Program-made: the position numbers and the translations under genes
Notes under the pieces: generated by a model
The model's input: only the letters and a program-made list of their open reading frames with translations
The model's database searches: none
Told to the model about the DNA's origin: nothing
Shown: piece by piece, positions 29,836 to 43,033 of the stretch
How positions within the stretch are numbered: the first letter of the stretch is position 1
Layout: every line of letters begins with the position of its first letter
From: Desulfofustis sp. PB-SRB1
Lineage (GTDB): Bacteria; Desulfobacterota; Desulfobulbia; Desulfobulbales; Desulfocapsaceae
DNA: 64,000 bases
Reading direction: 5' to 3'
Assembly: GCA_016722945.1 (NCBI GenBank)
Contig: JAEQMT010000059.1
Span: 124,001 to 188,000, forward strand

Positions 29836-32136
29836 TTATTTAGGCAAAGATTCCAGCAGTTCCCTTGCCCGGTTATGACTCGGGTCTATCGCCAGTGTCC
29901 TGCGACCCAGCAATTCAGCCCTGTCGATGAGGCCGAAATTGAGGTAGAGGTTGGCAAGGGTGGTGAAATATTCCTGGTTGCCCGGTTCCTGGTCCAGAGC
30001 CTGGAGCAGGGCCTTTTCGCCGTTTTCCCACTGCTGAAGTTTCAACAACGCCAGCGCTTGATTGTAGCGCGCTCGGCTGTGATGCGGCATACGGTCGGCT
30101 GCCTCGCCCAGCCAAAAGGCTGATTGTTCGTATTGCTCCATTTCAGCAAGCAGGAGCCCGAACGAATAGGCGACTTCGGGCAGATCCGGGTTCTCGGCAA
30201 GGACCTGGCTGAATAACTCCGCGGCACCCGGGTTGTCGCCATTCTGGTTTAACAGAAAGGCCAGATTTATCTTGGCCTGGTAGAACCGATCATCGATCAG
30301 AAGGGCCTCCCGGTAGAGCCTAATGGCGTCATCCGGCTTGCCGGTGGCGGCGGCAAGATTTCCGAGATTATAGCGCTGCGGCGCAAAATCACTGTTGTAG
30401 ACCATGGCGTCGCGATACTCTTCAAGTACTCTGGCCAGTGCCTGTCGGTGTTCCGGTCTGATCGACTCAGGGTCGACATCGGCAAGAAGGGCGGCGGCTT
30501 CGATACGAACAGCTTTGACGTCGTCGTAGAGTTTGGGTTCCAGCAGTTTGCGCCGGCTCTCTATGTCCAGATGGGCAAGGTTGCGAACGGCGCTGTGGCG
30601 GATCAGGGCCTCACCATCCTCAAGGGCCCTGATGAACACGTCCGAAGTAATCTCGTGGGGATACGTGCTCAACAGGGACAGGGCCGTGGCCCGGACAATC
30701 GGCGGTAGCAACCCGTCCTCGGCGGTATTCATGAGCTCTTCAACCGCCTCCGGGATTTGGTTTCGCCCGCGAGCGAACACCTCCCCGTAGTGCGGTTTTC
30801 TGGCTGAACCGTACCACTTCACGTAGTGTTCGTTAACCCAGTCAAGGGATTTGTCGGCATGACAAGCGGCCGCCGAGCAACTGTTGGGTACGCCGATCTT
30901 TTCACTTAAGTCGGGCCGGGGTATGCGCAGACTATGATCCGGCCGGTAATCCGCCCCCATATAAATCCTGCCGGGCATATGACATTTCACACACAGATGA
31001 CCTTCGCTAGGCTCGCCGTTATGCTCACGCTTGTGAAAATGGTGGGTCGGGGTGTCGTAGGTTTGGGCCCGGTGGCACTGCAGGCAGAGTTCATTGCCCT
31101 CGTGATGGCGTTGCAGGCTGTGGGAGTCGTGGCAGTCACTGCACCGCACTCCGTGCTGATACATCTTTGACTGGGTGTAGGAGCCGTAGACGTACACCTC
31201 TTCATAGATTTGCCCATCCGGGTAATACAACCCTTCACTCAGTAAGGAGGGCACGATTGTGTCGAGCAACTCCCCTTCCCGGTGGAGATTGTCACCAAGC
31301 TGATAGCGCCGGGAATGACACGGCGCACAAACGGCGATCTGCCGGCGATTACCGGGGTCGGTAGCGTCAAGCTGTACGGCAAGATCGTAATTGACGGCTT
31401 TCGGCCGTGCCATTTCCGGTCGCTCCGCCCAGCTGATATGCCGGGAACCCGGCCCATGGCATGCCTCGCACCCCACGTGTATCTCGAACCAGCGGGTATC
31501 GTAGGTCTCGGTGGCCATATCATACCCTTTTTCCAGCCGGGTAGAGTGGCATTCGGCACACATACCGTTCCAGGTTTGCCCACCGCGGGTCCAGTGCAGC
31601 CAGTCATCCGGGCCCTCCACTTCATAGGGTGGCAACCGGTACCAACGGTTTTCCCGGGAATTCCAGCCGATGTTCAAACATTGCAGGCGGCCGCCGGGAA
31701 AAGGAATGAGATACTGCTGGAGTGGGTAGACGCCAAATGTGTGAGTGATTTCATAGGTTACAGGGGTGCCCTCCACGCCTTCGGTCTCTACGAAAAACTT
31801 TCCGCCATTGCGAAAAAACCTGCTGGTAGCACCTGAATAGGAATCAGTAAACGTCACATCGCTGAAATCCCCCAGCACCGTCTCTTCGGCAGCCACGTCC
31901 ATGGCCAGGTCATGGTGAGAGTTGTGCCATTTGTCATAGACGGCCCGGTGACATGACTTGCAGGACTCGCTGCCGGTGAACTCCAGTTCACCGGCCACCA
32001 CCGGCTTGATTGCGTAGCTGTCTCGCATCAGATAGAGCAGCGGGGCAAGAAGACAGATTACGGCGGCAATGAGGCCGGCACCATGCCACTTCAGGGTGGT
32101 CTTTTCAGACATGGATTGAGGTGGGGTATCCTTCAT
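29836..32136 (-). CDS. Octahaem cytochrome c with C-terminal TPR domain
   Basis: A periplasmic or membrane-anchored electron-transfer protein of 766 residues. One hydrophobic segment lies at about residues 20-37, then eight c-type haem motifs: CKSCH, CAECH, CEACH, CAPCH, CSDCH, CLQCH, CVKCH and an unusual CSAAACH with four residues between the cysteines. Residues from about 520 form a helical region with HEAT-like and then TPR repeats (for example PDDAIRLYREALLID). It starts one base after the Rieske stop, so the two are coupled. It probably takes electrons from the cytochrome b/Rieske pair. The final acceptor is unknown. Confidence 0.88.
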   Translation of the reverse strand: MKDTPPQSMSEKTTLKWHGAGLIAAVICLLAPLLYLMRDSYAIKPVVAGELEFTGSESCKSCHRAVYDKWHNSHHDLAMDVAAEETVLGDFSDVTFTDSYSGATSRFFRNGGKFFVETEGVEGTPVTYEITHTFGVYPLQQYLIPFPGGRLQCLNIGWNSRENRWYRLPPYEVEGPDDWLHWTRGGQTWNGMCAECHSTRLEKGYDMATETYDTRWFEIHVGCEACHGPGSRHISWAERPEMARPKAVNYDLAVQLDATDPGNRRQIAVCAPCHSRRYQLGDNLHREGELLDTIVPSLLSEGLYYPDGQIYEEVYVYGSYTQSKMYQHGVRCSDCHDSHSLQRHHEGNELCLQCHRAQTYDTPTHHFHKREHNGEPSEGHLCVKCHMPGRIYMGADYRPDHSLRIPRPDLSEKIGVPNSCSAAACHADKSLDWVNEHYVKWYGSARKPHYGEVFARGRNQIPEAVEELMNTAEDGLLPPIVRATALSLLSTYPHEITSDVFIRALEDGEALIRHSAVRNLAHLDIESRRKLLEPKLYDDVKAVRIEAAALLADVDPESIRPEHRQALARVLEEYRDAMVYNSDFAPQRYNLGNLAAATGKPDDAIRLYREALLIDDRFYQAKINLAFLLNQNGDNPGAAELFSQVLAENPDLPEVAYSFGLLLAEMEQYEQSAFWLGEAADRMPHHSRARYNQALALLKLQQWENGEKALLQALDQEPGNQEYFTTLANLYLNFGLIDRAELLGRRTLAIDPSHNRARELLESLPK

Positions 32137-32137
32137 T

Positions 32138-32659
32138 TCAACGGTATGCAACCTGAGAGGCCTGAAAGGAATCACGCTTTCGTGGTTGGCTGACATCAAC
32201 CATGATGCGGCCATTCTCCACCCGAACCGGATAGATATCCAAGGGGAGGATTGCCGGTGGTGTCATGACACTGCCACGAATATCAAAGGTTGATCCATGA
32301 CAGGGACAGGTGAAGCGCTGCTCTTCCCGGTTCCAGGGAAGCGAGCATCCCAGGTGTGTGCAGGTCTTTGAAAGTGCCATGAAACCGCCGTCTTCCAGAC
32401 ATGCCAGGTAGAACTTTCCGGCCGGGACTGCTTTGACATCGCCCGGTGACATATCCGCCGCGGCGCCGGCGTAGATCAGTTGGGCGCCGCCATCGGCCTG
32501 TTGTCTTTTTTTTCCGCGCCTGGAGATTAAAGAGGTTGCCGCCCATAACAATTCGATACAGAAAATCACCGCAAGCAGCCGCCACAGATAGGTGAATAAA
32601 TTTCTGCGGCCGTGGTTTGTGATAGTGTGGTCCACCACTTCTTTTTCAGGGGGTGTCAT
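32138..32659 (-). CDS. Rieske [2Fe-2S] protein of a bc-type complex
   Basis: The 173-residue product has one N-terminal membrane helix preceded by GRRNLF, a twin-arginine-like pattern. The Rieske domain has both cluster boxes, CTHLGC and CPCHGSTFD, with the two Cys and two His ligands intact. It should move electrons from quinol to the cytochrome c. It lies 73 bases after the cytochrome b gene and one base before the octahaem cytochrome gene, in one leftward operon. Confidence 0.95.
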   Translation of the reverse strand: MTPPEKEVVDHTITNHGRRNLFTYLWRLLAVIFCIELLWAATSLISRRGKKRQQADGGAQLIYAGAAADMSPGDVKAVPAGKFYLACLEDGGFMALSKTCTHLGCSLPWNREEQRFTCPCHGSTFDIRGSVMTPPAILPLDIYPVRVENGRIMVDVSQPRKRDSFQASQVAYR

Positions 32660-32732
32660 GTGTCGTGCACATCATTGTTGTGAGGTCATGATAGTGAGTA
32701 CTGACGGCAGAGTATCGTTGGAAAAAGGAGCG

Positions 32733-34025
32733 CTACCAGACAAGCGCCATTTCCGGACCACGGAGCATAACCCCGATCAGGGTAAGGCTTGCCGCCCCGC
32801 CACATACCAGCATGAACACCCCCATGAGCGCCTGAGCCCGGGAAACAGCAGGGTGCCTGCTCAAAAGCAGAAATACGGTGACCGATATCAGAACGAGTCC
32901 GGCCGTTGGTATGACGCCTCGCCCCAGCCATGCGTCGAGCATATCGGCATACCGGCTCAGCAGGACATCGTCGAGCCAGACAACGAAAAAACCGAGCAAT
33001 CCACCGGCACAACCGGCCCCGGCGGCTATCGGTATCCCGCCGGGCCCGCCACACCAGACTCCACCCGACAATGTACCATCCTTTAAGAACGGCAGTGATA
33101 GAAAGAAAAGAAATACCAGCAGCGGCACCACACTCACCGCAAAAGATGGGTGCAGATGCAGTAAAAGCTCCTGGAGCCCCATAAAATACCAGGCCGCTTT
33201 GGCGGGATTCGGGCTCTGGGCCGGGTTGGCCTCGGTTCCCAGGGGAGCATCCACGAAGGCGGCAAAAAGCAGGACAAGGGCCAGCAGGGAAAAGCCCACC
33301 GCCGCTTCTCGCGCCACCAGATGGGGCATGGCGGGCAGGCGCTCAACGGACGAGTTGGTGCTTTCCCTGCTTCTTCTGATCAGTCCGCCGCTTTTTCTGA
33401 TAAGCCAGAAATGATAGATAAGAAGCGGCACAAACAGAGCCGGAACAATGCCGATATGGATGGCAAAGAAGGTGCTCAGCGTTTCCGGACCGACCTCGTC
33501 TCCGCCGCGCAACAGGGTCATCAGCGCATCTCCGATAAGCGGGATGTAGGAGAGCATGGCGGTAAAAATGGTCACCGCCCAGAACGCCAACTGATCCCAA
33601 GGCATCAGGTAGCCGGTAAAGTTGGCAAACAATACCAGGGTGAACAATACGATTCCCACCACCCAGTTGTAGCGGCGAAACCCGGTCAACGCACCAGTCA
33701 GCATGACCCGGAGCATATGGAGAAAGGTGATAATGACAAGCAGATTACCGGCCCAGTAATGGCAATTGCGGACAAAGCCGCCGAGCCCGCCCGGTTCATA
33801 CATACTGAGCACCGAGTGATATGCCTGGTGGGCCTGGGGTGAATAACTGAGCAACTGCAGCAGGCCACTGATAAACAGAAGCATGACAAGGGTCGCCGCC
33901 ATACCGCCCAGCCCGAAGCTGAGGGTAACGCGCAGCGTCTCGGCAGGTATTGTCCGCGGGTGCAGATGCACCAAAAAAGAATGGCTGGGGGGCACGTCTT
34001 GAAAAGCAGTAAAATTTCGTTGCAA
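32733..34025 (-). CDS. Cytochrome b (b6-type core with fused subunit-IV-like part)
   Basis: The quinol-oxidising membrane subunit, 430 residues. The four haem-ligand histidines are in HYWAGNLLVIITFLH (13 residues between) and HIGIVPALFVPLLIYH (14 between). The 14 spacing is typical of cytochrome b6 rather than mitochondrial b. A second part carries the quinol-site-like segment KAAWYFMGLQELL, as in subunit IV, followed by several more helices. The only in-frame start near the domain is TTG at 34025, since an in-frame stop lies about 30 bases upstream. It heads the b/Rieske/octahaem operon. Confidence 0.92.
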   Translation of the reverse strand: MQRNFTAFQDVPPSHSFLVHLHPRTIPAETLRVTLSFGLGGMAATLVMLLFISGLLQLLSYSPQAHQAYHSVLSMYEPGGLGGFVRNCHYWAGNLLVIITFLHMLRVMLTGALTGFRRYNWVVGIVLFTLVLFANFTGYLMPWDQLAFWAVTIFTAMLSYIPLIGDALMTLLRGGDEVGPETLSTFFAIHIGIVPALFVPLLIYHFWLIRKSGGLIRRSRESTNSSVERLPAMPHLVAREAAVGFSLLALVLLFAAFVDAPLGTEANPAQSPNPAKAAWYFMGLQELLLHLHPSFAVSVVPLLVFLFFLSLPFLKDGTLSGGVWCGGPGGIPIAAGAGCAGGLLGFFVVWLDDVLLSRYADMLDAWLGRGVIPTAGLVLISVTVFLLLSRHPAVSRAQALMGVFMLVCGGAASLTLIGVMLRGPEMALVW

Positions 34026-34094
34026 ACCCGGAGATAAAAAAACACCTATACACTATCGATACGCTGTATACAATGTCAGAATGTTGAGGGAGGG

Positions 34095-34428
34095 TGGTGA
34101 ACAGAGCGCCGTGGAGAAAATGTTGTGATAACGCAGGCCGTTTTCAGCGACCCGGTCCAGAGCCGGGGTGGGGATCACCCCGCCGAAAGTGGAAGGTACG
34201 CCGAAGCCTGAATCATCGGTAATGATCAGCAGAATATTGGGCGCCTCTTTGGGCGCCACGGTGCGCGGCGGCCACCACGGCTTTGATTGCAGGGCGCTCT
34301 CCTTGATGACGCCGCCGAACTCCGGTACCGGCGGTGGCAGCTGGGTGCCACTGATGGTCGCCGTGGCGCCGGGCGAGCCGGGTTCACCTGAAGTTTCCAC
34401 GGCGATGGCGGGTAGCACGCCATTGCCT
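34095..34428 (-). pseudogene. Duplicated 5' fragment of the arylsulfatase gene
   Basis: About 330 bases here match 40018-40350 of the arylsulfatase gene on the same strand, with only scattered differences. The readable frame (34053-34418) gives AVETSGEPGSPG, PNILLIITDDSGFGVP and ends at STALCSP, just at the catalytic cysteine, where the match stops and unrelated codons follow. The signal peptide is also missing. It is a dead fragment left by a duplication or rearrangement, and the pair forms direct repeats 5.9 kb apart. Confidence 0.85.
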
Positions 34429-34824
34429 AACGGTATAATGTTGTCAAAACGAGGTCGTGATATCGCCTGTGATCGGCACAGATGTTACCAAGCCAGTATG
34501 GAAAACCGGGCGAATGCGGTGCACTTCGTTCTGATTGACTCCCAGTCTCCCTCTGGTGCATACAGCACATCAGCGCAGAAGCACGCAATGTACCAGAATA
34601 GTTTAACAATACAACCGGTATAACTATCTGGTATTCTATACTTTTATGAGGACATTACCTTTCCCTGATAAAATCTTGACACGACGGCCTCAACATGTTG
34701 TTGTTCCGCACTACGGTAAGGGTGCGTGGGGTGCGCCGCATGACAAATGTGGCATTTCAAGACGTGCCCCCATACCCGCGCTGACGTTTGTAAATGTGGG
34801 CCTAAGCCGCGATTCAAAGAGGTA
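34429..34824. other. Intergenic region before the RimB-like gene
   Basis: No convincing gene is seen between the sulfatase fragment and the zinc-protease-like gene. It should hold the promoter of the rightward RimB-RimK operon. An in-frame ATG at 34747 would add 26 Cys/His-containing residues to the next gene but has no RBS. Confidence 0.35.
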
Positions 34825-35334
34825 ATGTACGGGTCGGCAGTGAAACAAAAACATGGTTCCAAACAGAAATCGCTGCATTTACCATTGATCGGCTGGCGGG
34901 AATGGGTCGCACTGCCTGATTTCGGTATTTCAGAAATCAAGGCAAAAGTCGATTCCGGTGCCCGCTCTTCGTCTCTGCATGCATATAACATCAAGGTCTT
35001 TGAACGCCGTAACGAGCAATGGGTTCGCTTCGGGGTGCATCCGGTTCAGAAAAACAGCAAGATTGCGGTGCAGGTGGAATCGCCGATTGTGGAATTCAGA
35101 TCCGTTAGGAACTCAAGTGGGTTGGCACGTATCAGACCGGTGATCCTTACCCATGTTGAATTGATGAATATGCGCTGGCTGGTCGAATTGACGCTGGCCG
35201 GGCGCGACAATATGGGCTTTCGGATGTTGTTGGGGCGCGAGGCATTCAGGGGCCGGTTTCTAGTTGATGGCGGCCGTTCCTTCTACGGCGGAAGACCGGG
35301 AAGAAAGACCCAGGCCTCGAAAGATAACCAATAA
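34825..35334 (+). CDS. RimB-like putative ATP-dependent zinc protease (PF05618)
   Basis: A 169-residue protein of the retropepsin-like family often encoded beside RimK. It has the signature KVDSGARSSSLHA near residue 42, where the Asp-Ser-Gly triplet is the presumed active site, and the closing MLLGREA. The family is named zinc protease, but the fold is aspartic-protease-like, so the mechanism is unsettled. I start at 34825, near an AGAGG. It is followed after 19 bases by rimK and then an aspartoacylase-like gene, a conserved trio thought to add and remove amino acids or tails on a target. Confidence 0.82.
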   Translation: MYGSAVKQKHGSKQKSLHLPLIGWREWVALPDFGISEIKAKVDSGARSSSLHAYNIKVFERRNEQWVRFGVHPVQKNSKIAVQVESPIVEFRSVRNSSGLARIRPVILTHVELMNMRWLVELTLAGRDNMGFRMLLGREAFRGRFLVDGGRSFYGGRPGRKTQASKDNQ

Positions 35335-35353
35335 AATCAGAATACGGTACACC

Positions 35354-36616
35354 ATGAAACTCGCTATTCTTTCGTGCAGCCCACAATGTTACAGCACCCG
35401 ACGCCTTCGCGAGGCGGCGCTGCAGCGTGGCCACAAGGTCAAGGTGTTGAATACGCTAAAATTTGCCATCGATCTCGAGCAGGGTATGCCCGATTTATAC
35501 TACCAGCAAAAGCTCCTGTCGCAGTACGATGCGGTTTTGCCGCGGATCGGCGCTTCGATCACCTATTATGGTACCGCGGTTGTCAGGCAGTTTGAGCAGA
35601 TGGATATTTTCTGCGCCAATTCTTCCGCCAGTATCGCAAATTCACGCGATAAGCTGCGCAGCCTGCAAATTCTCAGTAAACATCAGATCGGTATTCCGAA
35701 AACGACATTTGTCAGGGACAAACATGATGTTCTGCCCGCCATCGAACGAGTGGGCGGCGCTCCCGTGATTATCAAACTCATTGAGGGCACTCAGGGTATC
35801 GGTGTGCTTTTGGCGGAATCCATCGAAACCGCTGCCGGTATCATCGAGCTGTTGCAGAGCCAGAAGCAGAGTATTCTTATCCAGAAATTCGTCAAAGAGA
35901 GTAAGGGAAGGGACATCCGGGCCTTTGTCGTTGGTGATCGTGTTGTCGGGGCGATGCGAAGAGTTGCTCAGGGCCAGGAGTTTAGAAGCAATGTGCACCG
36001 GGGCGGACGGACTGAGCCGGTGGCGTTCGATGGTCTGTATCAGGAAACCGCGGTAAGGGCGGCGCAGATTTTAGGTCTTCGTGTTGCTGGAGTGGATATG
36101 CTCGAGGCCAAGGATGGCCCGCTGATCATGGAGGTGAATTCCTCACCGGGACTGGAGGGCATCGAGGAGTGTACCCAACTTGATATTGCCGGAGCGGTCA
36201 TCGACTATCTTGCCGCTCAGGTCAATTTCCCGGAAATAGATCTGCGCCAGCGTCTCACCGTGAGCAGTGGTTATGGGGTTGCCGAGATTGCCATTCCGGA
36301 AGGCTCCGAGTTTGTAGGTAAAACAATTATTGATTCCGGGCTGCGCGGCAAAGATATTATCGTTTTGACCCTGCACCGCGATAGCAAGGTGATTCCAAAC
36401 CCGCGCTCGGGACGTGAGCTCCTGGCCGGAGATCGGTTGCTCTGTTTTGGTCGGTTGGCCATGATGCGCGATATGATTCCCGGCAAAACCCGTCGGAAAA
36501 GACAACCACCGGTTAAAACTTTGCCCGAACTGCCGGTTGCCGACGAGGTATCCAAAGATTCAGGTGCAGCGTCCCCCGCTTCAGTACCGGTGGAGCTGAA
36601 CAGGGGAGATGGATGA
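35354..36616 (+). CDS. rimK: RimK-like ATP-grasp glutamate ligase fused to a C-terminal RCK_C (TrkA-C) domain
   Basis: RimK-type enzymes join glutamate to a protein C-terminus or to another amino acid using ATP. Residues 1-295 form the RimK core: an N-terminal domain, then ATP-grasp parts including VIIKLIEGTQGIGVLLAE, GRDIRAFVVGD and the metal-binding MEVNSSPGLEG. E. coli RimK is about 300 residues; this protein is 420. The extra part contains a domain like TrkA-C/RCK_C (residues about 305-375: GSEFVGKTI, VLTLHRDSKVIPNP, LLAGDRLLCFG), a regulatory ligand-binding fold. A basic Pro-rich tail follows. It overlaps the next gene by 4 bases. Confidence 0.92.
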   Translation: MKLAILSCSPQCYSTRRLREAALQRGHKVKVLNTLKFAIDLEQGMPDLYYQQKLLSQYDAVLPRIGASITYYGTAVVRQFEQMDIFCANSSASIANSRDKLRSLQILSKHQIGIPKTTFVRDKHDVLPAIERVGGAPVIIKLIEGTQGIGVLLAESIETAAGIIELLQSQKQSILIQKFVKESKGRDIRAFVVGDRVVGAMRRVAQGQEFRSNVHRGGRTEPVAFDGLYQETAVRAAQILGLRVAGVDMLEAKDGPLIMEVNSSPGLEGIEECTQLDIAGAVIDYLAAQVNFPEIDLRQRLTVSSGYGVAEIAIPEGSEFVGKTIIDSGLRGKDIIVLTLHRDSKVIPNPRSGRELLAGDRLLCFGRLAMMRDMIPGKTRRKRQPPVKTLPELPVADEVSKDSGAASPASVPVELNRGDG

Positions 36617-37704
36617 TGGTGAAGCCGAGATCGATATCCATTGACCACTGGTTTGGTAAAACGATAGCCCCTGGAACAACAACCAATGTGGCGCTTACCG
36701 TTGGTGAAAGCTACACCAGCATGGCCATGCGGATTCAGATTCAGATTCGCCGGGCGGTTGAGCCGGGCCCGGTGGTGTTCGTCACGGCGGCCCTTCACGG
36801 TGATGAGCTCAATGGCTGCGGCGCCGTGCGCCATTTGATTCAGGACTCAGATCTCAAACTCAAAAAAGGTGCGTTAATGCTCGTGCCGGTTCTCAACCTC
36901 CCGGCATTTGAGCGACATTCCCGTTATCTGCCCGACCGTCGTGACTTGAACCGCTGTTTCCCTGGTATTGCCACCGGCAGCCTCGCCAGCCGCATGGCTC
37001 ATACGATATTTACTGAGATCGTGCGGCGATGCGACTATGGGATTGATCTGCATACCGCTGCCGTTCGCCGCACCAATTACCCCACGGTGCGTGCCGATCT
37101 CGGTGACCCTGCCGTTCGCCGGCTCGCCGAATCGTTTGGCACGGAAATAATCATCAACAGTAAAGGGCCGAGAAATTCCTTTCGACGAGAGGCCTGCAAG
37201 GCTGGATGCCCGACCATTGTCATGGAAGGTGGTGAGGTGTGGAAGGTCGAGCCGGGCATTGTCGAAACCGCTGTTCGCGGTATTAAAAATGTGCTTGGCG
37301 ATCTGCAGATGGTTGAAACCCAGAGTGAAAAGCCGCGGTATCAGATCATTATCGAAAAATCGACATGGATCCGTGCCGAGCACGGTGGATTTCTTCAGTT
37401 CCACATCAGCCCGGGTGACCTGGTGGAAAAAGGGCAGCCTTTGACTACCAGTACGACACTTCTCGGTGAAGAGCGGAGTACCCTTTTTGCTCCTTATAAC
37501 GCGGTGGTAATGGGGATGACCTCTCTGCCATCGGTCAGCCCGGGGGAGCCGATCTGCAACCTTGGCAAGCTGCCGCGAAAGTTCGCCCCTGAAGCGCTAA
37601 AAAAACTGCGTCTCAAACAGGACAGCCTGGAACAGCAGGTATTGGAGGAATTAGGATCGAGCGTACTCGTCACTGAGCCGTCGTCGGAGCTTCAGCAGGA
37701 ATGA
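36613..37704 (+). CDS. Succinylglutamate desuccinylase/aspartoacylase-family zinc hydrolase
   Basis: An M14-like zinc carboxypeptidase-type hydrolase that cleaves N-acyl or amino-acid amide bonds. The 363-residue protein has the zinc-binding HGDE motif (residue about 58), the substrate-arginine segment DRRDLNRCFPG, the third zinc ligand in DLHTAA and the catalytic Glu in MEGGE. A C-terminal biotinyl/lipoyl-like beta domain (GGFLQFHISPGDLVEKGQPL) is typical of the branch linked to RimK. Start and rimK stop overlap, so the trio is one operon. It may remove what RimK adds. Confidence 0.9.
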   Translation: MMVKPRSISIDHWFGKTIAPGTTTNVALTVGESYTSMAMRIQIQIRRAVEPGPVVFVTAALHGDELNGCGAVRHLIQDSDLKLKKGALMLVPVLNLPAFERHSRYLPDRRDLNRCFPGIATGSLASRMAHTIFTEIVRRCDYGIDLHTAAVRRTNYPTVRADLGDPAVRRLAESFGTEIIINSKGPRNSFRREACKAGCPTIVMEGGEVWKVEPGIVETAVRGIKNVLGDLQMVETQSEKPRYQIIIEKSTWIRAEHGGFLQFHISPGDLVEKGQPLTTSTTLLGEERSTLFAPYNAVVMGMTSLPSVSPGEPICNLGKLPRKFAPEALKKLRLKQDSLEQQVLEELGSSVLVTEPSSELQQE

Positions 37705-37874: not shown

Positions 37875-40403
37875 CTATTGTCGGGCGGCGGCGACCTTCT
37901 TCATGTTCTCTTCAAGCTTTTTGATGTCCTCAGGCGAAAGCTCCGGACGATCGACCGTGATGGTCAGCTTGTTGAGTTTTGCGGTCAGTGGGAACGGTGG
38001 GAGGTAATCACTATCATTTACGCCGGTCAAGGTGTCGATACCGATATCAAACGATTCATCCCATTGCAGGATCATCGGCAGGGTCTTGTCCATTTTTTTA
38101 GTAGCGACAACCGCGCCGTTTACCTTCAGGGTGCCGGTTCCCGGTCGGCCCAGACCGCTCATGCTGTTGTACGCCAGCGTTCCGACGCCGAGCCCCTCAT
38201 AATCGAAGTCAAACTCAATGACATGGTTGCCGGGGGTGAGCGGTTCGGATCCTGCCCATCTGATCCGTTCCAGGTCGAGCATGTTCCAGCAGAACACCGG
38301 CGCGCCTTTGAGCAGGTAGAACCCATATCCGGCAAAACGACCGCCGGAGGTGAGAATCATGCCCTCGGCGCCACCTTCCGGCACGGTGATGTCGGCCTTG
38401 ATCGTGTAGGATGTGTTGAGCAACAGCGGCGAATCGCCCTGAGGCAGACCGGTCATGGGACGGGTGTAGACAAATTCCGTCCGTCCGGCGGTGATGTTCG
38501 GCCGCGGCGCAATTACCCGGGTCGCCACTGAGGCGTCCATCGGGAACACCTGGTATTTTTTTGCTTCCTCGATGAATAGTTTTTTCAGCTCCTTCACCTT
38601 ATCCGGATACTGATCGGCCAGGTCTTGTGACTGGGAAAAATCTTTCTCCAGATTGTAGAGCTGCAACACCTGATTGTTGAGTGGATCGGGATTGGCGGCG
38701 CCGTAGGCATCCCACGGGGCGCGATTTACCTTGGTGGCCAGCAGCCAACCCTCGTGGTAGAGCGCCCACTGGCCCATCATTTCAAAATATTGGGTTCTGT
38801 GCTGAGACGGCGCCGCGGCGTTGGCCGCGGCAAAGGTGTAGGCAAAGCTGGTGCCCTCGATTGGGGCCTGGGTGATGCCATCTACCTCTTTGGGCGCCGC
38901 AATGCCGGTTACCTCGAGAATGGTGGGAGTCACGTCGATCAGGTGCATGAACTGTTCGCGCATGCCGCCTTTGTCGGTGATCCTCTCCGGCCAGGATACC
39001 GCCATGCTCTGGCGCACCCCACCGAGCCGGGAGGCATTCTGCTTGAACCAGGTAAACGGCGTGTCGAAGGCCCATGCCCAGGCGGCGGACATATGGTTGT
39101 AGGTTTGCTCCGTGCCCCACTCATCATACCATTTGAGCTGTGTTTCAACCGGCATCTCGTTGATGCCATTGAAAAAGGCCACCTCATTAGGCGTTCCCAG
39201 CGGCCCGCCTTCGGCACTGGTGCCGTTATCCCCGTTGATGTAAATAATCAAGGTGTTGTCAAGCTCGCCCATGTCGTCCACCGCCTGGATGACCCGGCCG
39301 ATTTCATGGTCGGTATAGGCGGCGAAGGCGGCAAAAATTTCAACTTGTTTGATAAACAGTTTCTTCTCGTCCTCGGTGCATTTACTCCACGGCTTCAAGA
39401 CATCGTCCGGCCACGGTTCAAGCACGGTGTCAGCCGGAATCACCCCCAGTTTTTTCTGATTTTCGAAGATGGTCTCACGCAGCTTTTCATAGCCGTCGTC
39501 AAACAGGTGCATCGCCTGGATTTTCTCCACCCACTCCTTGGTCGGATGGTGCGGGGCATGGGTGGCGCCGGGGGCATATTTGATGAAAAACGGTTTATCC
39601 GGTTCGATCTGGTTCATGCGGTGCATGTAGTCAATGGCGTCATCGGCCATGGCGGTGATCAGGTTCCAGGTACCGGGCTTGGCCCCTTTAAACGGATAAA
39701 TCTGGGTCGTGTTGCGAAACAGGTTGGGCTCCCACTGGTTGGCGTCGCCCCCCACGAAGCCGTAAAAGTATTCAAACCCAAGACCGGTCGGCCACTGGTC
39801 AAAAGGGCCGACCTGGCTGGCCGCAAACGCCGGGGTATTATGGTCTTTGCCAAACCAGGCGGTGGCGTAGCCGTTATCACGAAGGATTCGGCCGATGGTC
39901 GCTTTGTCCTTTTCAATGATACTGTTATAGCCCGGAAATCCGGTTGATTGCTCGGAGATGACCCCGAAGCCGACGGAGTGATGATTCCGTCCGGTGATCA
40001 GGGCGGCGCGCGATGGCGAGCAGAGCGCCGTGGAGTGAATGTTGTTGTAGCGCAGGCCGTTTTCGGCGACCCGGTCCAGGGCCGGGGTGGGGATCACCCC
40101 GCCGAAGGTGGAGGGGACGCCGAAGCCTGAATCATCGGTAATGATCAACAGAATATTGGGCGCCTCCTTGGGCGCCACCGTGCGTGGCGGCCACCACGGC
40201 TTTGATTGCAGGGCGTCCTCCTTGATGACGCCGCCGAACTCCGGCACCGGCGGAGGCAGCTGGGTGCCGCTGATGGTCGCCGTGGCGCCGGGCGAACCGG
40301 GTTCACCTGAAGTTTCCACGGCGATGGCCGGCAGTACGGCCATTGCCAAAATGATCAGAAGCACTCCGATCATTGCTGTGGTTTTATGGTACTGCTGTTT
40401 CAT
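37875..40403 (-). CDS. Secreted arylsulfatase (formylglycine-dependent, 842 aa)
   Basis: The enzyme hydrolyses sulfate esters in the periplasm or outside the cell. A signal peptide ends near LPAIAVETSG. The alkaline-phosphatase-fold core starts with APNILLIITDDSGFGVP, which contributes metal-binding aspartates, and has the formylglycine motif CSPSR in TALCSPSRAALITG. The activating enzyme is not in this window. The long C-terminal part (after residue 600) includes beta-rich segments with NHVIEFDFDYEGLG. The RBS is GAGGGGG. It is the last gene of a leftward cluster with two DUF2092 genes. A fragment of its 5' region is duplicated at 34.1-34.4 kb. Confidence 0.95.
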   Translation of the reverse strand: MKQQYHKTTAMIGVLLIILAMAVLPAIAVETSGEPGSPGATATISGTQLPPPVPEFGGVIKEDALQSKPWWPPRTVAPKEAPNILLIITDDSGFGVPSTFGGVIPTPALDRVAENGLRYNNIHSTALCSPSRAALITGRNHHSVGFGVISEQSTGFPGYNSIIEKDKATIGRILRDNGYATAWFGKDHNTPAFAASQVGPFDQWPTGLGFEYFYGFVGGDANQWEPNLFRNTTQIYPFKGAKPGTWNLITAMADDAIDYMHRMNQIEPDKPFFIKYAPGATHAPHHPTKEWVEKIQAMHLFDDGYEKLRETIFENQKKLGVIPADTVLEPWPDDVLKPWSKCTEDEKKLFIKQVEIFAAFAAYTDHEIGRVIQAVDDMGELDNTLIIYINGDNGTSAEGGPLGTPNEVAFFNGINEMPVETQLKWYDEWGTEQTYNHMSAAWAWAFDTPFTWFKQNASRLGGVRQSMAVSWPERITDKGGMREQFMHLIDVTPTILEVTGIAAPKEVDGITQAPIEGTSFAYTFAAANAAAPSQHRTQYFEMMGQWALYHEGWLLATKVNRAPWDAYGAANPDPLNNQVLQLYNLEKDFSQSQDLADQYPDKVKELKKLFIEEAKKYQVFPMDASVATRVIAPRPNITAGRTEFVYTRPMTGLPQGDSPLLLNTSYTIKADITVPEGGAEGMILTSGGRFAGYGFYLLKGAPVFCWNMLDLERIRWAGSEPLTPGNHVIEFDFDYEGLGVGTLAYNSMSGLGRPGTGTLKVNGAVVATKKMDKTLPMILQWDESFDIGIDTLTGVNDSDYLPPFPLTAKLNKLTITVDRPELSPEDIKKLEENMKKVAAARQ

Positions 40404-40658: not shown

Positions 40659-40907
40659 TTACCAGCGCCCGACCCTGTTCACCGGCCCGCCCTTATTTCT
40701 GGGGGCGACGCCTACTCCGGGAGCCCCCAGCCCCACGGTGGATCGTCGCGCCACCCCGGCATAGCTTACCGGGGTAACGGGCCTGCCGATGACCGCCTCG
40801 GCATCACTTCCCACCCTCAGCTTCGGTGGCTCCGCGCCAATTTCCAGGAGCCATACGGCGAGTGCCACACTTCCGATAAGGAGATATTTCATTCTGGCTG
40901 AGATCAT
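40659..40907 (-). CDS. Small secreted or membrane-anchored protein (82 aa), hypothetical
   Basis: The product has an N-terminal hydrophobic segment (MKYLLIGSVALAVWLLEIGA) and then a short Gly/Arg-rich part with RPVTPVSYAGVARRSTVG. Its start ATG at 40907 overlaps the stop of the DUF2092 gene in an ATGA and follows GGGAGG, which argues that it is real and coupled. The GV(A)RR motif resembles one in the 159-residue protein encoded two genes upstream. No function is known to me. A 250-bp gap without genes separates it from the arylsulfatase. Confidence 0.65.
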   Translation of the reverse strand: MISARMKYLLIGSVALAVWLLEIGAEPPKLRVGSDAEAVIGRPVTPVSYAGVARRSTVGLGAPGVGVAPRNKGGPVNRVGRW

Positions 40908-41689
40908 TTCGTGCCTCCCGGTATGGTATCCGGCGGCAACTCATCGAGTTCGATCAGCGCATTGGGGTCAAGCAGTTCGGCGGTGGGCGGCGGGGTGAAG
41001 ATAAACGCCGCCGGTGCGGGAACATCCCCGGTTTCCCACTCTTTGATGCGAACCGTGTATTGCGGCGCGCTGTTCAGGGTTTTTGTGGTAATGACCAGCT
41101 TGCGCGGCACCGGCCGACTGCCCGTTTCCACCCAGAGCTGCCAGTCGGTATCAAAATTGCGAAAGGCGAGATGTTCGCATTCTCTCTCATCAATGACCCC
41201 GCGGCCGATATGCTTGGCCTCCAAAACATCTGCCGCCAGATGATCGTAGGAATGTGACAGCAGCAGATCAGCTCCCGGCAGGGCGACGCCGTGGCCCTGC
41301 CGCAACGATTCAATGAGGCCGTCTATATCGCCCGGGGCATCATACTGAGCATAGCCGTTGAGATGTTTGCCATGGATGGTGACGGTGGTCCCGTCATAGT
41401 AAAGCGCCACGTCGGCATAGCCGCCCAGCCTGCGGGCGTACAGCTTGTCCGGCCGGTGCAGAAGCACTTCACCGGAATTGGTGAACTGAATCTTCTCCAG
41501 CTTTGGGGTGATTACTTCAATGTCACTGTCGAAACTGAGCCTGATTGTCTCCAGGCTGCCGACATACGTTGCCATGGCCTGGAGAATCGCCATGGCGTCC
41601 GCATCACCTGATGAGGTCTGAGCGGATGCGGGACCACCCGGCCAGAAGAGTGCCACAAGCATTGTGAACACAAGGGTCATTCGTTTCAT
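40904..41689 (-). CDS. DUF2092 periplasmic protein, paralogue 1 (261 aa)
   Basis: A predicted periplasmic protein with a cleavable signal peptide (ending near GGPASAQT). The DUF2092 pattern follows: a helix with MATYVGSLETIRLSFDSD, then LHRPDKLYARR, YYDGTTVTI, LPGADLLL and a late DWQLWVET segment. The fold is LolA/LolB-like, a lipoprotein- or lipid-binding half barrel, which is family knowledge rather than seen. It is related to the 251-residue protein at 42278-43033, so the cluster carries two divergent copies. It is coupled to the 82-residue gene downstream. Confidence 0.85.
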   Translation of the reverse strand: MKRMTLVFTMLVALFWPGGPASAQTSSGDADAMAILQAMATYVGSLETIRLSFDSDIEVITPKLEKIQFTNSGEVLLHRPDKLYARRLGGYADVALYYDGTTVTIHGKHLNGYAQYDAPGDIDGLIESLRQGHGVALPGADLLLSHSYDHLAADVLEAKHIGRGVIDERECEHLAFRNFDTDWQLWVETGSRPVPRKLVITTKTLNSAPQYTVRIKEWETGDVPAPAAFIFTPPPTAELLDPNALIELDELPPDTIPGGTK

Positions 41690-42277: not shown

Positions 42278-43033
42278 TCACAGGGGCATGAAATTGATTC
42301 GTCTGGTGGCCTCAGGCGGTTCAAACCGAAATAATGTATTGTCCGTTTGCGGGGCCGTATTCCACTCACTCATCACCGTACCGATACTCAGGCGGTTGTA
42401 AAAACCGGTATCGGTCACCACGTATTTGTAAGGGAGCGGGGTACCCTCGGCGCCAATCCAGAGCTGAAAATCAACACCGGGTCGACTGAACAGCAGATGG
42501 TCACAACGGATACCGCCGATCACCGAGGCGCCGACCACCATTGCCAGATCCAGCTCTCGGGTCAGGAGCTCATAGGCGTTGCCGTAAATCAGGTCGGCGG
42601 CGGGAATGTCAAGGCCAAGTGATTCACGGGCGAGATCGAGCATCTCTTCGATGGTCGGGGGCGCCGGTTCGGTTGCATAAACCTGGTCGGTGGGATTAAA
42701 CAGGGTGAGCGTGGCGCCGTCATAAAAAAAGTGCTGATCGACGAGGTCGCCCGAGCGGGTGGCCTGGAGCTTGTCCGGGCGGCTGACGATGATATCCGCC
42801 GATACGTCAACATCGACCCGGTTCCCCGAATCGAGCAACTCTTCCAGGGTGTTGTGGGTGTGTACGCTGAATGATTGCAGGCTGCCGAGATAGTCGGTCA
42901 TCGCCCGCAGTTTCTCAAGAGCGACGGGATCGATCGCTGTTTGCTGAGCCAATGAGTCTCTCGGGGGAAAGCTCAGCGCGCACAGCGCCAGAACGCAGAA
43001 CGCGATGAGCTTCCCGGGTGTGGTCGTTATCAT
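42278..43033 (-). CDS. DUF2092 periplasmic protein, paralogue 2 (251 aa)
   Basis: The product has a signal peptide ending near DSLAQQ and the same ordered motifs as the neighbouring DUF2092 protein: MTDYLGSLQSFSVHTHNT, SRPDKLQATRSG, FYDGATLTLFNP, IPAADLIYG and VDFQLWIG. The two are clearly paralogous but diverged. A role in binding a hydrophobic ligand or carrying a lipoprotein is suggested by the LolA-like fold of the family and is not shown by the sequence alone. Confidence 0.85.
   Translation of the reverse strand: MITTTPGKLIAFCVLALCALSFPPRDSLAQQTAIDPVALEKLRAMTDYLGSLQSFSVHTHNTLEELLDSGNRVDVDVSADIIVSRPDKLQATRSGDLVDQHFFYDGATLTLFNPTDQVYATEPAPPTIEEMLDLARESLGLDIPAADLIYGNAYELLTRELDLAMVVGASVIGGIRCDHLLFSRPGVDFQLWIGAEGTPLPYKYVVTDTGFYNRLSIGTVMSEWNTAPQTDNTLFRFEPPEATRRINFMPL

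Follow-up and report, generated by a model that had tools for sequence, protein, structure and literature searches.

Among the closest described relatives of the locus reported here are the Rim proteins of Pseudomonas and the proteins that carry an RCK_C domain. RCK_C domains are otherwise known from potassium transport; they act as dimers, whose cleft can accommodate a small ligand. Published work is cited below by PMC number. In Pseudomonas, RimB removes glutamate chains and stimulates the synthesis of poly-alpha-glutamate by RimK, and RimK and RimB act on the ribosomal protein RpsF (PMC11957791). A RimBK hybrid of Desulfotalea psychrophila showed protease activity, while no ligation to RpsF of strain SBW25 was detected (PMC11957791). 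The RloA proteases of P. aeruginosa were needed for hypo-osmotic tolerance (PMC12239564). The locus analysed here lies in a 64,000-nucleotide stretch of Desulfofustis sp. PB-SRB1 (GCA_016722945.1, contig JAEQMT010000059.1, positions 124,001 to 188,000), the whole of which is called the window. It encodes a RimB-like retropepsin, a RimK-family ligase with a C-terminal RCK_C domain and an AstE/AspA-type hydrolase. It was proposed, with moderate confidence, that the ligase is regulated through RCK_C and that the trio adds, trims and releases glutamate for osmotic or ionic adaptation. An initial annotation of this DNA had already assigned a cycle of "add", "trim" and "remove" steps to the trio. 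The first two fit the published biochemistry of Pseudomonas RimK and RimB (PMC11957791), and the third would be the putative role of the hydrolase.

The ligase was matched by the Pfam models Rimk_N (5.4e-38) and RimK ATP-grasp (5.2e-58) and exceeded the cut-off of the RimK-family model TIGR00768 (257.3 against 143.4 bits). By its sequence it is a RimK family alpha-L-glutamate ligase, with the activity predicted. Its 420 residues stand against the 300 positions of the E. coli-type model PRK10446, in agreement with the extension of about 120 residues pointed out in the initial annotation, where the added part was likened to TrkA-C/RCK_C. The extension contains an RCK_C domain, as judged by sequence and predicted fold. 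TrkA_C (PF02080) matched it with an E value of 4.5e-10 and 39.7 bits against the Pfam cut-off of 27, and the score was 42.1 bits when the extension was searched alone. A profile of 16 fused homologues retrieved KtrA (1.6e-4), KtrC (0.0019), BusR (0.0025), MthK (0.008) and KhtT (0.009) from the PDB. The structure prediction for the full-length RimK was poor (predicted local distance difference test score, pLDDT, 47.9) and was not used. The isolated domain, modeled from 36 homologues, was acceptable (pLDDT 77.9); it matched RCK_C-containing chains in Foldseek with a best E value of 2.2e-5, and VIA-align gave Z scores of 8.7-11.6 against RCK_C chains among the 50 matches listed.

All three genes lie on the + strand within 34825-37704, as in the RimB-RimK-aspartoacylase operon initially annotated. 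The RimB and RimK genes are 19 bases apart, and the last 4 bases of the RimK gene, stop codon included, are also the first 4 of the hydrolase gene; this suggests a single transcript, in one apparent operon. The RimB protein scored 111.4 bits with PF05618 (cut-off 27) and 121.5 bits with the NCBIfam RimB equivalog, which was the best of four retropepsin models and has a cut-off of 200. The putative catalytic Asp43 is found in a D-S-G-A motif and was kept in 73/74 fused-locus and 18/18 unfused-locus alignments, the single exception ending short of this residue. RimB may start earlier than 34825: an ATG at 34747 would give 195 residues, and homologues align from approximately residue 13-20 of the 169-residue form. 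The Pfam catalytic domain of the hydrolase was scored at 130.2 bits (cut-off 25), and no cut-off of a named enzyme was reached (DoeB 73.8/402.7, aspartoacylase 29.4/180 and AstE 18.9/305.65 bits). Residues His62, Glu65, His147 and Glu205 and the RDLNR motif at 110-114 were retained in all, or all but one, of the 69 fused-locus alignments and in 15/15 unfused-locus alignments; His62, Glu65 and His147 are presumably the zinc ligands of the family.

Features of the rim locus, in window positions; residue frequencies refer to the 87 aligned proteins described in the text
Feature	Position	Strand	Basis
RimB-like retropepsin (PF05618 Zn_protease)	34825-35334	+	Pfam 4e-32
RimK-family ligase with C-terminal RCK_C, 420 residues	35354-36616	+	Pfam, NCBIfam and PDB matches
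RimK catalytic core, residues 1-286 (pre-ATP-grasp and ATP-grasp)	35354-36211	+	Rimk_N 1-94, RimK 98-286; PDB RimK chains over 1-288
Conserved linker, residues 287-308	36212-36277	+	Mean majority-residue frequency 0.91
RCK_C/TrkA_C domain, residues 309-375	36278-36478	+	Pfam 309-365; profile to PDB; domain model and fold searches
Variable tail, residues 376-420	36479-36613	+	Basic, then mixed/acidic; mean majority-residue frequency 0.57
AstE/AspA-type hydrolase, 363 residues	36613-37704	+	Pfam AstE_AspA_cat 9e-38

The fusion was not unique to the window. A scan of public genomes returned 141 loci encoding a relative, and in the best 80, which were kept, the fusion was present in 80/80, each matching at least to residue 374. 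These loci carry eight phylum names (Planctomycetota, Thermodesulfobacteriota, Actinomycetota, Myxococcota, Chloroflexota, Spirochaetota, Pseudomonadota and Acidobacteriota), and many are metagenome assemblies whose phylum labels may err. An alignment of 87 proteins was made from the 80 loci, the host of the window and six places from the host's family (three repeat proteins already included); complete fused RimKs in it had 393-427 residues, and one of 372 was cut by a contig end. A second fused set (20 loci, Planctomycetota) had lengths of 390-414 residues, and unfused RimKs had 298-301. When the catalytic core alone was used to build a tree, a single branch parted 93 fused from 20 unfused RimKs with a Shimodaira-Hasegawa-like approximate likelihood ratio (SH-aLRT) of 100. 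This tree came from a quick search with no bootstrap, and the program warned that long branches meet where L170, a divergent member of the fused proteins, attaches to the unfused ones. Because one branch separates the two kinds, a single fusion event followed by later spread would be the simplest reading. The fusion was found in 31/199 sampled Planctomycetota genomes and, in full, in 7/93 of the host's family. A RimK of the window kind (E 1e-60) was rare in the host's phylum, with 2/297 genomes, namely the window's own and one unfused. The open-licence literature searched yielded no RCK_C-fused RimK, and a search for TrkA with RimK showed no such protein by title among the matches listed; the fused RimK appears to be new, and its component families were already known.

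The association of the fusion with the trio was partly borne out. RimB was found within 600 bases of the fused rimK in 60/80 loci, and the exact RimB-RimK-hydrolase order on one strand in 41/80. In tblastn searches of the second, more divergent fused set the trio was thinner; of the 20 unfused loci, 15 had RimB, 13 had the hydrolase and 9 had both. Since the trio occurs both with and without RCK_C, the domain looks like a later addition to a pre-existing Rim system. A search of the open-licence literature for RimK with aspartoacylase and ATP-grasp found no paper. Iyer et al. 2009, on amidoligases, may have noted RimK beside such hydrolases.

The initial annotation had also placed RimK under small-ligand or nucleotide control. 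Such control is plausible by sequence comparison, as the best three PDB matches were KtrA, KtrC and BusR; c-di-AMP (cyclic di-adenosine monophosphate) is a candidate, though hardly one for every host. Characterized bacterial RCK_C domains often bind ligands, several of them c-di-AMP (PMC8517857, PMC10243994). The BusR pocket (PMC8517857) was mapped by eye onto the profile alignment. By this mapping, the hydrophobic positions Ile325, Leu330 and Val337 were kept, the position of BusR Asn/Asp157 was occupied by Gly329 (Gly in 78/87), residue 331 was Arg in 61/87, the pocket loop was one residue shorter than in BusR, and the equivalent of BusR Pro181 was variable. Beside the equivalent of the pocket loop, Asn349-Pro350 was kept in at least 95% of the 87 proteins. 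The host of the window had two diadenylate cyclase (PF02457) matches over the cut-off. Such a match was found in 40 of the 50 fused hosts tested (of the 80 loci) and in none of the other 10, so c-di-AMP is unlikely to serve as the ligand in all of them, and naming it as the sure ligand was too strong. Among the hosts with no cyclase match were four isolates of Actinomycetota and Desulfoluna limicola, whose chromosome is complete; some others were metagenome assemblies and possibly incomplete.

Two further lines on c-di-AMP were set aside. The cyclase was present in 30/31 fused Planctomycetota genomes, which was uninformative, as it was over the cut-off in 187/199 Planctomycetota genomes anyway. 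An association of Arg331 with the cyclase (36/41 against 5/10, Fisher p 0.017) was dropped because only two independent pairs lay on supported branches. It was also observed that five Actinomycetota loci (L076, L077 and L079-L081; Leucobacter and Microbacterium) had Trp at residue 331 and RimB upstream on the opposite strand, with no hydrolase found nearby; the three genomes of this group that were tested (L076, L077 and L080) gave no diadenylate cyclase match.

Further, the genes around the loci were compared, a context that the initial annotation had not pointed out. When the open reading frames (ORFs) of the 80 fused loci were clustered, channels of the MscS type and transporters of the CorA/ZntB and MgtE types recurred, and three hidden Markov models (HMMs) were built from these clusters. 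The control consisted of 40 stretches of 20 kb at round coordinates in 14 RimK-carrying genomes, where 1 match was found (1.2 per Mb); Fisher tests compared the loci with these stretches, and the loci within each set are not independent. The 80 fused loci gave 29 matches in 19/80 (31.9 per Mb, p 0.0017), a test that is partly circular as the HMMs were derived from the same loci, and 17/69 after removal of 11 near-duplicate loci (p 0.0015). The unfused loci, which were not used for the HMMs, gave 14 matches in 10/20 (56.0 per Mb, p 2.2e-5). The osmotic and ionic context therefore goes with the wider Rim system and not with RCK_C; the idea that RCK_C was the reason for the ion neighborhood was rejected, since unfused loci show at least as much of it.

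Pfam families were assigned to the nearest neighbors (122/125 proteins after three long ones were dropped, from a set already cleared of the 11 near-duplicate loci); the 25 families listed of 177 included Response_reg 5, CorA 4, HATPase_c 4, MgtE 3, MscS 3 and SLC12 2. No such ion family was among 25 listed of 139 in the random control (122/301 ORFs, first 20 stretches), where single matches could be hidden. A RimK match was also present in 36 plasmid records, none of which carries the fusion, as the match stayed below 80% of the query in every record. Of the 20 records listed, eight were opened, chosen for differing organisms before their neighbors were seen, and an unfused trio was found in 6/8. 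Among these six, an annotated mechanosensitive channel was present in four, a magnesium transporter in three and CorA or ZntB in two; 5/6 had at least one gene of these kinds, and the sixth, from Acaryochloris, had a cation:proton antiporter. No such ion gene was listed for the two plasmids that had no trio, whose gene tables are incomplete. The Vibrio europaeus plasmid (L246, 6001-12356) carries, consecutively and on one strand, rimK, the hydrolase, RimB, a magnesium transporter, CorA, a mechanosensitive channel and a universal stress protein, and the V. nigripulchritudo plasmid has ectoine genes upstream. Searches of the open-licence literature for RimK with osmotic, mechanosensitive, mscS operon or ectoine gave nothing relevant among the matches listed, and others led to papers already known on Rim, Rlo, c-di-AMP and ATP-grasp proteins.

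Glutamate is the usual counter-ion of potassium. We proposed that a cytoplasmic ionic or nucleotide signal would bind RCK_C (c-di-AMP in hosts that produce it, a different signal in the others), and that the bound signal would switch, in whichever direction, the synthesis of glutamate chains by RimK on its putative substrate. The RimB retropepsin would cut these chains, and the AspA-type enzyme, whichever bond it may cut, would complete their hydrolysis. Most likely, glutamate would be moved between free and polymerized or protein-bound forms for osmotic and ionic adaptation, and the window copy would presumably do the same job outside an ion neighborhood. The proposal draws on the context seen across the family and on the published findings for RimB (PMC11957791) and RloA (PMC12239564) given above. 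A broader proposal is put forward only tentatively: the trio may be a widespread osmotic or ionic module, and not chiefly a ribosome modifier, which buffers glutamate as poly-alpha-glutamate alongside MscS channels, transporters for magnesium or of the CorA type and, in some cases, ectoine synthesis; the RCK_C gained in one lineage, today found under eight phylum names, would couple the polymer directly to the K+ and nucleotide signals governing potassium transport. Were it true, the RimK family would gain a physiological role outside the ribosome, retropepsin-like bacterial proteases would be tied to ion balance, and RCK_C would regulate a ligase and not a transporter, channel or repressor. 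The long-open question of what RimK-made poly-alpha-glutamate is for would become testable, as would any rise and fall of the polymer in response to osmotic shock when a defined ligand is present. Of the two ideas, an osmotic role of the Rim trio is bolder and easier to test than the RCK_C fusion itself.

Several observations weigh against the regulated osmotic system. The HMMs for MscS, CorA and MgtE had no match in the 64 kb of the window. Unfused RimK has an ion context that is no weaker, so this context does not explain the gain of RCK_C, and it was weak in the second fused set (3 matches in 3/20, 11.4 per Mb, p 0.10), where RimB was found in 7/20 and the hydrolase in 9/20. The database entry K05844, which we take to be rimK, speaks for an osmotic role: it was commoner, together with other glutamate-modification genes, in brackish than in marine genomes. 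The authors, however, attribute this enrichment to changes in protein charge (PMC10219603). Deletion of rimB in P. aeruginosa left hypo-osmotic growth unaltered in every background tested (PMC12239564).

Ribosomal S6 as the target of the fused RimK was considered unlikely, even with a core close to the S6 ligases: PRK10446, the S6-ligase equivalog, matched residues 1-289 with 322 bits, which falls narrowly below its cut-off of 331, and S6 ligases of the PDB matched at 1e-83. RpsF is a target of the Pseudomonas enzymes (PMC11957791), and the last residue of S6 is Glu in 15/31 fused hosts (the best-scoring 30 of 49 fused-host genomes with a match, and the window host). In the other 16, one of them cut by a stop, it is not Glu; the S6 of the window host ends in ...DDNAEA, i.e. 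in Ala, because of which S6 is a doubtful target in this host and cannot be assumed. Unfused hosts had a final Glu in 5/22, with several ORF ends doubtful. The third enzyme and the ion neighbors would, moreover, have no evident part in S6 modification. A quite improbable alternative is a role of the trio in both the synthesis and the breakdown of a small glutamate-containing amide, such as an N-acyl-amino-acid glutamate serving as a compatible solute, the hydrolase being an N-acyl amino acid deacylase. The best curated relatives of the hydrolase, all far under cut-off, are indeed small-molecule deacylases, the osmotic neighbors would fit a solute (one plasmid has ectoine genes nearby), and mammalian RimK-like enzymes make N-acetylaspartylglutamate, according to a title cited in PMC10219603. 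However, the RimB-type proteases characterized cut polyglutamate of at least five Glu (PMC11957791); a dipeptide solute needs no such protease, and RimB nonetheless adjoins most of the fused RimKs.

The RCK_C domain could also be an oligomerization or docking module that binds no ligand, for which we see little likelihood. Gly329, the incomplete retention of Arg331, the shorter loop and the variable Pro181 position would agree with it, as would the lower conservation of the domain by majority residue in the 87 proteins (0.75 against 0.85 for the core). Against this stands the retention of Asn349-Pro350, which fold constraints alone could explain, and the ligand binding frequent among characterized bacterial RCK_C domains (PMC8517857, PMC10243994).

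In the window, the genes next to the trio encode a sulfatase, cytochrome b, a Rieske protein and DUF2092 proteins. Within the gene for the sulfatase, on the - strand at 37875-40403, a 334-base stretch (40014-40347) recurs with 92% identity at 34095-34427 in an ORF (34053-34418) on the opposite side of the trio. Two copies of the sulfatase gene, one complete and one partial, thus flank the trio and may reflect a duplication or an insertion scar. Three further repeat pairs of 145-165 bases with 81-91% identity were observed at 52247-52397/59644-59794, 59966-60109/61981-62124 and, inverted, 20369-20532/22077-22238. Two DUF2092 periplasmic proteins are encoded at 40904-41689 and 42278-43033 on the same strand with one ORF in between. 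The region 29836-34025 on the - strand beside the trio encodes cytochrome b, the Rieske protein and a large protein with TPR repeats and CxxCH-type haem motifs (by eye), and is likely an electron-transfer cluster.

The locus was finally compared with the known systems. It resembles Pseudomonas RimA/RimB/RimK in having a RimB-type retropepsin beside RimK, with the catalytic Asp kept and a core that is a 50%-type relative of S6 ligases. Unlike the window protein, the Pseudomonas RimK has no RCK_C and is controlled by RimA and cyclic di-guanosine monophosphate (c-di-GMP) (PMC4741518, PMC10092738); moreover, the window has a hydrolase as the third gene and a host S6 with no terminal Glu. The RimBK hybrid of D. 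psychrophila (PMC11957791) is likewise a fused RimK, from a relative at phylum level, but there RimB is fused N-terminally, whereas the window has a C-terminal RCK_C and a separate RimB. The P. aeruginosa RloA/RloB/RloC system (PMC12239564) also pairs a RimB-like retropepsin with a protein of the ATP-grasp type, has an osmotic role and cuts polyglutamate; it differs from the window trio by a secreted protease, a membrane transglutaminase-like partner, a distant ATP-grasp (24% to RimK) and the lack of RCK_C. With KtrA/KtrC, KhtT, BusR, CpaA and MthK the window protein shares the same RCK_C domain by profile and predicted fold. Those proteins regulate transporters, channels or a repressor, whereas in the window the domain is carried by a ligase, with the c-di-AMP pocket only partly kept.

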